From: Leuconostoc miyukkimchii
Lineage (GTDB): Bacteria > Bacillota > Bacilli > Lactobacillales > Lactobacillaceae
Length of the DNA: 64,000 nucleotides
NCBI RefSeq assembly: GCF_019656055.1
Contig: NZ_BPKY01000006.1
Coordinates: forward strand, 186,001 to 250,000
Direction of reading: 5' to 3'
Shown here one piece after another: positions 5,480-62,124 of the stretch (position 1 is its first letter; each line of letters begins with the position of its first letter). The notes under the pieces are model-generated. The model was not told where the DNA came from and made no database searches. It saw only the letters and a program-made list of their open reading frames with translations. A program made the translations under genes and the position numbers.

Positions 5480-5607
5480 TCATAATATTATTTTGCAAAA
5501 GAAATCCCGCGTACCAAAAGACACGCGGGAAAAGTTTTTTAAACTTCCTCGGCAGGATATTAAGGTACAAGTACCACCTGAGTCTTAGGCAAAATGATTT
5601 AATTCAC
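5480..5607 (-). promoter_or_regulatory. Ribosomal protein L10 leader RNA
   Basis: 5' leader of rplJ-rplL that folds to mimic the L10-L12 binding site of 23S rRNA, giving feedback control. The minus strand contains the conserved CCTGCCGAGG block preceded by GGTACTTGTACCTTAATAT. It is followed by a GC-rich hairpin (CCCGCGTGTC... GGTACGCGGG, 5506-5529) and a U-rich stretch, which could act as an attenuator before the rplJ RBS. Confidence 0.85.
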
Positions 5608-57278: not shown

Positions 57279-57933
57279 CCTTTATATTGTTCGACACGGT
57301 GAAACCTATTTCAATTTTTTGCACCGCTTTCAAGGCTGGTCAGATGCGCCTTTAACATCGAAAGGCATCCAGCACGGACTTGATGCAGGTTCGAGACTAG
57401 CCAACGTTCATTTTGATGGTGCTTATTCTTCAGATTTAAGTCGTGCTATTCATACCGCACGTTATATTTTGCAGAACAACACATCCGATTCGCCTCTCAA
57501 TCCCAAAGAATTGCCTGATTTTCGTGAACAATTTTTTGGATCGTTTGAAGGACTTAATAGCGATACTGTCTCTGCAAAACTTAACGCATATAAAAATAGT
57601 TCTTTGAGTACCTATGCTGATTTAATCAAGACGTATGGTATGGCTGAAGCAATGGACACAATTCGATTAGTGGACCCTTATAATTTTGCAGAAAACGATT
57701 CACAATGGTGGACCAGAGTATCTCATGGATTTGATGATATTCGTAATCGTCACCATGATGGTGATAATGTCCTTATTGTGTCACATGGCACAACAATTCG
57801 TGGTATCGCTGAAAAATTAGATCGGCACGACCTTGCTGGTGATCCTGTAAAAAATGGTGCACTGATGCAAATAGAGTTACTCAACGATTCAGCAACTATT
57901 TCAAGATTTAACGATGATACAACTATTTTTTGA
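57268..57933 (+). CDS. Histidine phosphatase superfamily protein (phosphoglycerate mutase-like)
   Basis: 221 residues with the RHG motif (LYIVRHGETYFNFLHRFQGWSDAPLT), SDLSRAIHTARYIL, FREQFFGSFEGLN and second His VLIVSHGTTIRGIAEKL. It is distinct from GpmA: more like the broad-specificity GpmB/CobC phosphatases. The ATG lacks an RBS and an in-frame stop lies 15 nt upstream, so the start is secure but dependent on the upstream mini-ORF. Confidence 0.88.
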   Translation: MPINLYIVRHGETYFNFLHRFQGWSDAPLTSKGIQHGLDAGSRLANVHFDGAYSSDLSRAIHTARYILQNNTSDSPLNPKELPDFREQFFGSFEGLNSDTVSAKLNAYKNSSLSTYADLIKTYGMAEAMDTIRLVDPYNFAENDSQWWTRVSHGFDDIRNRHHDGDNVLIVSHGTTIRGIAEKLDRHDLAGDPVKNGALMQIELLNDSATISRFNDDTTIF

Positions 57934-58099
57934 TAGATAATTTTTCTAAAAACTGATAAACTAACATTAACTTAAATAAAGGTGAGTATATTATATTGTT
58001 GAACAAATTTTAAGATTCCATACACAAAAATGATTAGATAGCTTAATTATTTTTATGTATACATCTTGAGATTGGTTCGTATTTTTACCTTTACCACGT

Positions 58100-58139
58100 A
58101 AAATACCTCCAGTCTCATAACTACTGGAGGTATTTTTTT
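58100..58139 (+). promoter_or_regulatory. Terminator hairpin that sequesters the hflX ribosome binding site
   Basis: Perfect 14-bp stem AAAATACCTCCAGT/ACTGGAGGTATTTT (58100-58113, 58123-58136) with a 9-nt loop. The T-run ends at the base before the ATG. The 3' arm contains GGAGG, the only RBS of hflX. The same structure would therefore stop transcription and, if read through, hide the RBS. Confidence 0.75.
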
Positions 58140-59438
58140 ATGACTGAAACACACTCAAATATTGAAAATCCACGTCAAGTTTTCTTAGTAGGATTATCAA
58201 CAAGTAATGGTAACTTTAATTATGAATTAGAAGAGCTAGCTAACCTTGCTAAAGCAAATAACTTAGAGCCTATCGAAACTTTTACACAAAAACTTGAGCG
58301 ACCCAATCCGGCTACATACTTTGGTAAAGGTAAAGTCGAAGAATTAGCTGAAGCAGTTAATACCTATGATGTTGATATGATTATCGCAAACGATGAGTTA
58401 TCACCATCACAGATTCGCAATTTAGAAAAAGTAACCCATGCCACAATTGTTGACAGAACAGGGCTTATCTTAGATATTTTTGCGCAACGTGCACAAACAA
58501 AAGAAGCAAAGTTACAAGTTCAATTAGCACGTTTACAATACCAACTACCTCGCCTGCGAACAAGTATGTCTGTCAGCTTGGATCAACAAACCGGTGCTGG
58601 TGGTGGCGGTTTTACATCTCGAGGTTCCGGAGAAACAAAACTAGAAGAATCACGCCGCCGTATTACAGCACAAATGGTTCATATTCGTCAAGATCTAGCT
58701 TCTCTTACAAAAGGCGATACGACACGTTCAATTCGTCGTAATAATAATGAGCTTGCAACAGTAGCTTTGGTTGGATATACCAATGCAGGTAAATCAACCC
58801 TAATGAATCGCCTATTAACACGGTTCGGTGTCGGATCAGAAAATAATGAAACAAAACAGGTTTTTGAAAAAAATATGTTATTTGCTACATTAAATACGAC
58901 TGTGCGTCAACTTACACTTCCTGATAAAAAACAGTTCCTATTAAGTGACACTGTTGGTTTTGTATCTAAGCTACCGCATAACTTAATTGCTGCATTCAAA
59001 TCAACTTTGCAAGAAGCAGCCAGTGCTGATTTATTATTGCAAGTTGTCGATGTTTCTGACGATCATTATAAAGACATGATGGCTACTACTGAAAAAACAT
59101 TGGCCGAAGTTGGCATCCATGACATCCCCATGATTACCATTTACAATAAAGCTGATCAGACAGAACTGGATTATCCTGAAGTCTCCGGCGAGAATGCTAT
59201 TACTATCTCCGCTTTAGATGTCGCTTCACAAGATGCACTGATTTCATTAATTAAAAAACAAATATTTAAAGATGTAACAACTGTTAACCTTCATATTCCT
59301 TTTGATAAAGGTCATATCCAAGCACAATTGGCAGCAAAGCACACTTTCGAAACGCTCGATTATGATAGTACTGGTACTTTGATAACTGTTGACTTATCAC
59401 CACTAGAACGCAATTTGTTTCAAGAATACATCTTGTAA
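58140..59438 (+). CDS. hflX: Ribosome-associated GTPase HflX
   Basis: GTPase that splits stalled or antibiotic-bound 70S ribosomes in other bacteria. 432 residues: N-terminal domain with NPATYFGKGKVEELAE and DRTGLILDIFAQRAQTKEAKLQVQLARL, GAGGGGFTSRGSGETKLEESRRRI, then the G domain with G1 GYTNAGKSTLMN, G3 DTVGFVSKLPHNLI and G4 YNKAD. The RBS is inside a terminator hairpin directly upstream, implying conditional expression. Confidence 0.95.
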   Translation: MTETHSNIENPRQVFLVGLSTSNGNFNYELEELANLAKANNLEPIETFTQKLERPNPATYFGKGKVEELAEAVNTYDVDMIIANDELSPSQIRNLEKVTHATIVDRTGLILDIFAQRAQTKEAKLQVQLARLQYQLPRLRTSMSVSLDQQTGAGGGGFTSRGSGETKLEESRRRITAQMVHIRQDLASLTKGDTTRSIRRNNNELATVALVGYTNAGKSTLMNRLLTRFGVGSENNETKQVFEKNMLFATLNTTVRQLTLPDKKQFLLSDTVGFVSKLPHNLIAAFKSTLQEAASADLLLQVVDVSDDHYKDMMATTEKTLAEVGIHDIPMITIYNKADQTELDYPEVSGENAITISALDVASQDALISLIKKQIFKDVTTVNLHIPFDKGHIQAQLAAKHTFETLDYDSTGTLITVDLSPLERNLFQEYIL

Positions 59439-59548: not shown

Positions 59549-60898
59549 TCATACGGTAGTTTTATGAGTATGAAAATGTAAAAAAATTAGCCCGAAAATA
59601 ATCATAGCGATTATAACTGATAAGTATCCAAACGTTTGAAAACCAGAGGTTTCACCCATTTTTGATTGTAACAAAGCGCCTACCGTTGTTCCTAATGCAC
59701 CCATAAACATCTGTGCTGTTTGTATAATTGCCGTTGCATCAGTTTTCTCTGACACACTAACATCAACCAGTGCAGCAGTTTGTGCACCTGTAAAAGCCAT
59801 ATTACGACCAACAATAAAGCCAATATACAATAAAATAATAGAAATAAGTGCCATTTGTTTAGTCCATAGTGACATTATAAGTATTACAACTATAAAAATC
59901 CAGTTTCCCATATATAATGGTATTTTAGCACCGTTTAAATCATACAATCTACCAAACACCGGATTTAACAATGCGCCAATAATTGAGCCAGGTAATAGAG
60001 AAAATCCTGCCCAAAAACTAGAGGTATGCAAAACCTCCTGCAAAAAAGTTGGAATAATTAAATTGAACCCTAACAAAACAAACATATAGAGTGCAATCGG
60101 AACCAAAAGTGTGACGAATTTTATTTCAGTAAATAATCTTAAATTCAAAAAACTTTGGTTTGAACTCTTCCCCCGCCAAATAAAAGCCACTAATGCAATG
60201 ATTATAATAACAACAAACATCCAATTAACATTACCTTTTTCTAATTGATTAACAACAAGTAACGTTAAAATTAAAAAAATAGACAGTAACGAAAAAGCGA
60301 CTAAATCAAACTTTTTCGTTAACTGTTGACGTTCTATATCAACTACTGTTCGCCATCCAAGTATAAGTGATAGCATTGGTGCCAATAGTGCAATGAAGAA
60401 AATAGCGCGCCAACCTAACGTGTCTACTAATATACCGCCATATGTCGGTCCAAATGAAGGTGCTAAGCTAATAACTAATGCAGCAAAACCCATCCATACA
60501 CCAATTTTAGAACGTGGTATGGTTGCCATCACAACATTAAAAACCAATGGCATTGCAATTCCAGCAGCAATACCTTCTAGAACACGTCCTATTAAAAGAA
60601 CAGTAATATTACTTGCAAAACCTGCAATTAATGTGCCCACCATAAAGATAAACACACTCATAAGCCATAATTTCCGACTACTAAATTTTTTTGTTAAGTA
60701 AGCACTTGTAGTGACCATGACTGTCACCGCAAGTAAATAAGCTGTTGTCACCCACTGAATGACGTTCAATTCTGTACCAAAAACTTGTGTTAACGTAGGA
60801 AACGTCACATTCATTGCTGTTTCAGCCATAATACCTGCAAAGGCCACCAAAGCCACTGATACAATGCCAAGTGCCGTTTTTAATGATACTTTTTCCAT
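59549..60898 (-). CDS. MFS drug/metabolite exporter, DHA2-like
   Basis: 449 residues of almost continuous hydrophobic segments, about 12-14 helices. Features of drug:H+ antiporters: MNVTFPTLTQVFGTELNVIQWVTTAYLLAVTVMV, motif A-like AYLTKKFSSRKLW and motif C-like SFGPTYGGILVDTLGWRAIF. Substrate unknown. AAAGGA lies before the ATG. A strong promoter and a leader hairpin precede it, so expression may be conditional. Confidence 0.87.
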   Translation of the reverse strand: MEKVSLKTALGIVSVALVAFAGIMAETAMNVTFPTLTQVFGTELNVIQWVTTAYLLAVTVMVTTSAYLTKKFSSRKLWLMSVFIFMVGTLIAGFASNITVLLIGRVLEGIAAGIAMPLVFNVVMATIPRSKIGVWMGFAALVISLAPSFGPTYGGILVDTLGWRAIFFIALLAPMLSLILGWRTVVDIERQQLTKKFDLVAFSLLSIFLILTLLVVNQLEKGNVNWMFVVIIIIALVAFIWRGKSSNQSFLNLRLFTEIKFVTLLVPIALYMFVLLGFNLIIPTFLQEVLHTSSFWAGFSLLPGSIIGALLNPVFGRLYDLNGAKIPLYMGNWIFIVVILIMSLWTKQMALISIILLYIGFIVGRNMAFTGAQTAALVDVSVSEKTDATAIIQTAQMFMGALGTTVGALLQSKMGETSGFQTFGYLSVIIAMIIFGLIFLHFHTHKTTV

Positions 60899-62021: not shown

Positions 62022-62041
62022 GTTTGCGCTCCTTTGATTAG

Positions 62042-62113
62042 TTGTTTACAGGCATGACCGTTCCTTGTCATGCAATTACAATAAGTTTCCGGGGCTTATC
62101 GTGAGGTAAACAA
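62042..62113 (-). promoter_or_regulatory. Ribosomal protein L13 leader RNA
   Basis: The 5' leader folds with a closing stem TTGTTTAC/GTAAACAA enclosing a hairpin GCATGAC...GTCATGC and a GCCCCGG-containing loop. Structure and position fit the L13 leader of Firmicutes, which gives autogenous control of rplM-rpsI. Confidence 0.75.
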
Positions 62114-62124
62114 TACCGTGTATA

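Follow-up and report, generated by a model that had tools for sequence, protein, structure and literature searches.

Leaders in which a short upstream open reading frame (uORF) lies among alternative RNA structures have been described both for hflX-type genes and for ABC-F genes, and the comparisons made here keep to the accessible portions of the sources. In Listeria, the hflX-type gene hflXr (rli80) is under ribosome-dependent attenuation involving an antiterminator and an anti-antiterminator, its leader encodes a 14-aa peptide with RLR and the genome carries a second, non-resistance hflX (PMC6310831). uORFC-6-1 is a conserved structured uORF motif that is likewise found mainly upstream of hflX, mainly in Bacillales, with a conserved Arg-Leu-Arg peptide and a structure lying wholly downstream of the uORF start (PMC8632094). 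In the leader of the Clostridioides difficile ABC-F gene cplR, a 5' hairpin over a three-codon uORF (MRI) is accompanied by an antiterminator and by a terminator hairpin that hides the main Shine-Dalgarno (SD) sequence; the transcript ends at the start codon, and induction by retapamulin and lincomycin has been shown (PMC10201436). In the vmlR leader of Bacillus subtilis, a tiny uORF (MIN) sits in an anti-antiterminator followed by an antiterminator and a terminator, the SD is hidden not by the terminator but by a separate hairpin (SL-4), pausing is NusG-dependent, and the natural uORF variants MDN and MDK are equally functional while MRK is less so (PMC9226507). More distant is the pT181 repC attenuator, which is controlled by an antisense RNA and for which the accessible part of the source describes no leader ORF (PMC5435934).

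The leader found upstream of hflX in Leuconostoc is probably an attenuator of the anti-antiterminator/antiterminator/terminator type that depends on the ribosome, and we class it as working like those of cplR and vmlR rather than like the RLR-type leader of hflXr, on a likeness of layout that carries no claim of descent. With hflXr and uORFC-6-1, it has in common its position upstream of hflX together with attenuator structures. With cplR and vmlR, it has in common a promoter of its own, predicted here from sequence, a short uORF with an SD, conserved ends and a variable sequence, and an anti-antiterminator overlapping this uORF; with cplR it also shares a terminator stem that, judging from sequence and predicted structure, hides the main SD. 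It differs from cplR in having five codons, a TTG start and hflX as the downstream gene and, whereas induction has been shown for cplR, it is known from sequence alone (PMC10201436). It differs from vmlR in the gene concerned and in that the SD is predicted to be hidden by the terminator (PMC9226507), and from Listeria hflXr in that Leuconostoc has a single hflX and a leader without RLR (PMC6310831), the conserved mini-ORF peptide showing no RLR (+x+) motif in the 19 aligned rows. Since the known hflX leaders have RLR and that of Leuconostoc does not, it therefore represents a variant, an ABC-F style leader on hflX. In other Lactobacillaceae, RLR-like leaders precede hflX at four loci (L032, L033, L034 and L044). 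As side observations, +x+ leader peptides (MRLRIAP..., MRLRLVS..., MRIRLR... and MRYIKFRFTT...) were seen upstream of hflX at these four loci and at L049 (Lapidilactobacillus, Lacticaseibacillus sharpeae, Fontibacillus), the Latilactobacillus fuchuensis leader (L042) reads MSIQLRLTLTTK, without +x+, and very short uORFs with good SDs, MMIF* in Lactobacillus and MMPI* in Paucilactobacillus, precede hflX at L047, L056 and L057.

The window, i.e. the whole stretch of DNA analysed, comprises 64,000 nt of Leuconostoc miyukkimchii (assembly GCF_019656055.1, contig NZ_BPKY01000006.1, positions 186,001 to 250,000 of the forward strand). hflX is the ORF at 58140..59438 on the plus strand, with an ATG start codon at 58140 and a product recognized as HflX by TIGR03156 (404.8 bits, cut-off 216.75), which is 87% identical to HflX of L. 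carnosum, 79-83% to those of L. inhae, L. gelidum, L. rapi and L. palmae, and 72% to that of L. fallax. HflX is present in 19/19 Leuconostoc genomes, counting an 80-residue fragment at a contig end in one of them (G004), and no second strong HflX was found in the window genome or in the other 18 (next matches E 5.9e-6 or weaker). Elsewhere in the window, a DHA2-type drug-efflux MFS gene on the minus strand faces hflX (59549-60898; 209 bits against an EmrB-type model with a cut-off of 230, and 169 bits against LmrB with a cut-off of 800), and Rfam finds L10 and L13 ribosomal-protein leaders at gathering score at 5491-5607 and 62039-62117, both on the minus strand.

A leader of ~170 nt is common to all 19 Leuconostoc genomes. 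A pattern for its three core segments occurs once per genome in each of them and is absent from the 378 other genomes of the family in a sample of 397 genomes from 40 genera, and the reversed pattern, used as a control, gave 0 matches. The alignment rows are related by kinship and these counts are thus not independent events; nor are the five named species of loci L001-L005 extra evidence, because the same species already sit among the 19 genomes. When 61 named-record loci were compared with a covariance model of the leader, L001-L005 alone matched at E < 0.01, a threshold at which the hflX leader of L. fallax (L006) gave no match. In a genome search with stricter filters, covariance model R1 matched strongly in all four Leuconostoc genomes sampled, and weakly (E 0.03-0.05) in 3/97 other genomes, which is read as chance. 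In the stretches inspected from L. fallax, Convivina and Periweissella, hflX is preceded by another kind of leader or by hardly any leader at all. In the L. fallax leader (L006), a hairpin enclosing the SD can again be made out by eye, with a T-run meeting the ATG, immediately before position 1500. No prior description of the Leuconostoc hflX leader was found in the literature searched, where most subscription journals fell outside reach. We regard as real the existence of a genus-wide, single-copy, attenuator-like leader of known kind.

The leader has its own predicted promoter in 19/19 genomes, although the window copy is weak. In a scan of spacers of 16-18 nt with a slight preference for 17, the best hexamer pair has in every genome a spacer of 17 nt, its end lying 30-34 nt upstream of the TTG. 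The putative window promoter, TAGATA-17-TAAACT (57934..57962, plus strand; predicted start about 57968-57970), matches 8/12 positions and lies below the threshold of a general promoter scan, which found 18 promoter-like sites vs 18.4 expected. A phosphatase gene ends just upstream of the leader in 13/19 genomes, and the hairpin at the hflX start might thus be an ordinary, non-regulatory terminator of that gene. This is hardly credible, however, as the conserved promoter lies in between, the promoter and the intact leader stay with hflX in the 6/19 genomes where the phosphatase gene was not found in 1.5 kb upstream, and an antiterminator would have no role in such a reading.

Downstream of the promoter, a Shine-Dalgarno sequence, AAAGGTGAG (57978..57986, plus strand; segment pairwise identity 0.85), replaced in relatives by AAAGGAAG/GAAGGAAG or AAAGAGG, precedes the five-codon mini-ORF TTG TTG AAC AAA TTT TAA (57996..58013, plus strand), encoding MLNKF*. 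An initial sequence-only reading of this DNA had pointed to this frame without choosing it as the leader ORF; no other frame keeps both its start and its stop in all 19 rows, where those of this frame occupy the same columns. The runners-up are the internal TTG of the same frame (14 rows) and an ATG frame (11 rows). The latter, encoding MYTS* (58055-58069 in the window), shares start and stop in 11/19 genomes, shows no SD upstream in the window and was rejected. A GTG frame starting at alignment column 15, with RFR- or RSR-like ends in some species, was also rejected: its start is present in only 9/19 rows, four of which end early as MQCIVD or MQYIVD. The mini-ORF peptide follows the consensus M[LSV][NTISK][KENR]F, and the 19 genomes have ten different five-residue versions of it (MLNKF, MLNEF, MSNEF, MLTKF, MLIKF, MLNRF, MLSEF, MSKKF, MLNNF and MVNKF). 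Its translation is putative, the start being TTG in all genomes and the peptide variable. The same variability bears on the idea of amino-acid or tRNA attenuation, in which slow decoding of the Leu, Asn, Lys or Phe codons of the mini-ORF would be the signal. Although codon 5 (TTT) is invariant, as this idea would have it, it sits within an invariant arm of the helix H1 described below, codons 2-4 differ in amino acid between genomes and, to our knowledge, HflX has no role in amino-acid supply, all of which makes this explanation very improbable.

The end of the mini-ORF is the first element in a chain of complementarity that runs to the hflX start. Region 1 (58006..58016, plus strand), which overlaps the mini-ORF end and contains TTTTAAGAT, identical in 19/19 genomes, is the 5' arm of the predicted anti-antiterminator H1, in which the mini-ORF end pairs with ATCTTGAGATT; region 2 (58063..58073, plus strand) is its 3' arm, and H1 is predicted in 19/19 genomes at -14.0 to -20.6 kcal/mol. 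The antiterminator 5' strand GAGATTGG (58068..58075, plus strand) can pair with CCAGTCTC, the antiterminator 3' strand or region 3 (58109..58116, plus strand), which lies in the 5' arm and loop of the terminator, and all 8/8 of these outer pairs are kept in all 18 distinct rows. An inner antiterminator helix, GTATTTTTAC/GTAAAATAC (58079..58106, plus strand), has 86.5% of its cells paired over the genus. The last link is the terminator, whose 5' arm holds CCAGT. Each of the three pairings, H1, antiterminator and terminator, rules out the next by sequence in 19/19 genomes. When the window leader was shuffled, an 8-bp antiterminator partner arose in 23/5000 cases, and in 3/5000 it also overlapped a 10-bp H1-like helix.

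Conservation follows this architecture. The TTG and TTTTAAGAT are 100% identical and the antiterminator outer strands TCTTGAGATTGGT and CCAGTCTC 99%, against an identity of 0.31-0.64 in the apical H1 stems, in the two loop segments and in the spacer between SD and TTG. In the OFF structure (H1, apical stems, basal helix and terminator), 93.6% of cells are paired vs 46-50% when slid. It also shows more covariation than shuffles, with 10 pairs changed on both sides vs 6.3 (2/500 as high), 33 both-sided cells vs 13.2 (0/500) and a covariation score of 0.219 vs 0.162 (0/500), further pair types not being above shuffles (459/500 as high). The both-sided changes sit in the H1 apical stems (5 pairs), the basal helix (4), of which only 2/4 pairs form in the window in the register of the genus, and the terminator (1). 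No such change falls in the H1 core, which is nearly invariant and therefore mute on covariation. In the ON structure, 93.7% of cells are paired vs 31-54% slid; its support comes from conservation and mutual complementarity rather than covariation, because the latter is near nil (1 pair changed on both sides, 336/500 shuffles as high; score reached by 32/500). The analysis shows the parts of the leader, their conservation and the mutual exclusion of their predicted pairings. A large structured leader with long invariant segments could also be a protein- or ligand-binding riboswitch in which the mini-ORF is incidental. Against this, the invariant segments are those that form mutually exclusive helices plus the TTG start, and no Rfam family matches the leader at its gathering score (18 weaker matches, E 0.17-9, are read as chance), and we hold such a riboswitch to be quite improbable.

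The sequence-only reading had also pointed to a second frame, containing RLVR, on which a stalled ribosome would melt the 5' arm of the terminator; this TTG-started frame is indeed present in the window at 58066-58101. In a rival explanation built on it, it would encode the leader peptide and a macrolide would cause the stall. RLVR is similar to the RLR motif of hflXr leaders and TTGAGATTGGT is kept in 18/19 rows; this conservation, however, is explained by its being an antiterminator strand. The frame has no shared stop, its stops being scattered and 8/19 rows reaching the hflX ATG without one, other rows read RLVC, RLVS or RLV*, no SD is seen upstream in the window sequence, and a ribosome on this frame would sit on the very strand that the antiterminator needs. 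We therefore give this proposal next to no weight. Macrolide-type sensing through RLR is likewise not supported, the conserved mini-ORF peptide being without such a motif, and a stalled ribosome, rather than melting the terminator arm directly, would block H1 and free GAGATTGG for CCAGTCTC.

The terminator-like hairpin itself (58100..58136, plus strand) consists of arms at 58100-58113 and 58123-58136 that form 14/14 bp around a 9-nt loop, and is the only inverted repeat of length at least 12 reported in 57900-58200. Its 3' arm contains the hflX Shine-Dalgarno GGAGG (58126..58130, plus strand; GGAGG in 18/19 genomes, AGAGG in 1/19) and runs into a T-run (58133..58139, plus strand; segment identity 0.95, 5-8 nt across genomes) adjoining the ATG. 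The perfect stem, the T-run up to the ATG and the GGAGG in the 3' arm are thus as first read, and the expectation that the stem and an upstream frame would be kept in relatives holds, with 94.4% of hairpin cells paired over the genus and the TTG mini-ORF in 19/19. Perfection of the stem is peculiar to the window, which has the strongest terminator stem of all 19 and is alone in having a pair facing the middle A of GGAGG (among the 19 rows: 12 C.A, 4 A.A, 2 gap, 1 U-A). The fold of 58064-58142 reaches -22 kcal/mol (z -4.37) and that of 57934-58160 reaches -54.2 kcal/mol (z -6.0), with 0/200 shuffles as good in both cases. The hairpin is missing from the list of a simple terminator scan, presumably because only loops of 3-8 nt are allowed there. 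The suggestion that one hairpin can act both as terminator and as SD-blocker is supported by the predicted structure.

The hairpin could nevertheless act on translation only, hiding the SD while RNA polymerase runs on through a T-run that is a mere spacer. The SD lies inside the 3' arm in 19/19 genomes (GGAGG or AGAGG), the stem and the T-run, of variable length, share A-U pairs and, in the cplR study, regulation by retapamulin persists when the polyU tract of the reporter is mutated (PMC10201436). However, the identity of the T-run contrasts with that of the loop (0.95 vs 0.31), and cplR, which has the same layout, terminates at its own start codon according to that study (PMC10201436). Moreover, the window genome has only four places where GGAGG leads, within 3 nt, into six T and then ATG; at three of them the SD is enclosed by a hairpin of -12.0 to -18.4 kcal/mol, against -6.3 at the fourth. 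Control of translation alone is in our estimation unlikely, and that of both transcription and translation is the reading we infer. As a separate observation, a 342-aa gene, which we take to resemble coiA (L101, G000:C7:70157, minus strand), is another case of an SD enclosed by a terminator-like hairpin, with its T-run meeting the ATG.

Whether the leader would switch was addressed by folding calculations that assumed a ribosome footprint from -14 to +15 relative to the P-site and a transcript start 45 nt before TTTTAAGAT. At equilibrium, a stall modelled at codon 3 or 5 gave the antiterminator a P > 0.5 in 11/19 genomes for a transcript to the ATG and in 7/19 when the transcript was extended by 40 nt; the window was not among them on either transcript length. 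Taken alone, the energies of the antiterminator equal or beat those of the terminator in 15/19 genomes, the window having -18.4 kcal/mol for its terminator vs -13.7 for its antiterminator. Prefix folding, carried out after equilibrium folding, considered transcripts cut off 5 nt downstream of CCAGTCTC, when the 3' arm of the terminator has yet to emerge. With the footprint at the start codon or at codon 2, 3 or 5, the antiterminator then had a P of at least 0.99 in 19/19 genomes. Without a ribosome, H1 prevailed over the antiterminator in 18/19, L070 favouring the antiterminator and L066 and L069 being mixed. Since the terminator wins at equilibrium in the window, switching there would need kinetic trapping, with the antiterminator forming first, or would be leaky or weak, and this modelled result counts against an easy version of the switch model.

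Taken together with the anatomy of the leader, the ribosome-dependent attenuator would operate as follows. With no ribosome on the mini-ORF, its 3' half AATTTTAAGAT would pair with ATCTTGAGATT to form H1, which would sequester GAGATTGG, so that the hairpin at the hflX start forms; this hairpin could then end transcription in the T-run and hide the hflX SD, and hflX would be off. A ribosome detained on the mini-ORF would keep H1 from forming, and GAGATTGG would pair with CCAGTCTC; this antiterminator would block the hairpin and leave the SD free, so that hflX would be made. A stall-dependent switch with a short leader ORF, as proposed in the sequence-only reading, is supported, and well so by the anatomy of the leader, with working parts that differ from those first put forward and an induction that we infer. 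Instead of a macrolide arrest that depends on the peptide sequence, the signal would be ribosomes halted at initiation or immediately afterwards. Drugs acting at this stage suit a leader ORF that is short and variable in sequence, which makes lincosamides, pleuromutilins, streptogramins A and perhaps tetracycline candidate inducers. HflX would then split the stalled ribosomes. More tentatively, and on balance doubtfully, the mini-ORF might be a general gauge of ribosome occupancy, with HflX splitting the ribosomes stalled on its own leader and closing the loop. If this were true, hflX would be on only while stalled ribosomes exceed splitting capacity, and the only hflX of the genus would be set by its own substrate, without a drug-specific peptide.

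A parallel exists within the same cell. One of the four places with GGAGG, six T and ATG belongs to a Vga-like ABC-F gene of the ribosomal-protection kind (L099/L103; G000:C3:225246-226607, minus strand; other copies L104-L106), which scores 394.8 bits against NF000355 (cut-off 380) and whose best model is ABCF_Vga_all (419.6 bits, below the 725 cut-off). At E 1e-80 or better, 4/19 Leuconostoc genomes carry this gene, the match in G003 containing one stop. Its leader, GTG CGT AAC TAA (MRN*) followed by an SD-bearing terminator-like hairpin, is kept in 4/4 copies, and antiterminator-like GGAATTGG/CCAATTC is found in 3/4, the fourth (L106) having AAATTGG. This MRN* leader resembles the cplR/vmlR kind as described in the accessible portions of the sources (uORFs MRI, MIN and MRK; PMC10201436, PMC9226507), and by this analogy it would be the best same-cell argument that such a layout senses ribosome arrest. 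The presence of a second attenuator of such design in the same genome makes a side-by-side comparison possible.

The leader would extend the compact short-uORF design known from antibiotic-protection ABC-F genes to hflX, genus-wide, and it sits on the only hflX found per genome, not on a spare copy. The ten peptides among the 19 genomes are a natural set for asking how far the peptide matters. For Leuconostoc, a genus used in food fermentation, the leader suggests that ribosome splitting may be held in reserve until early ribosome stalling.
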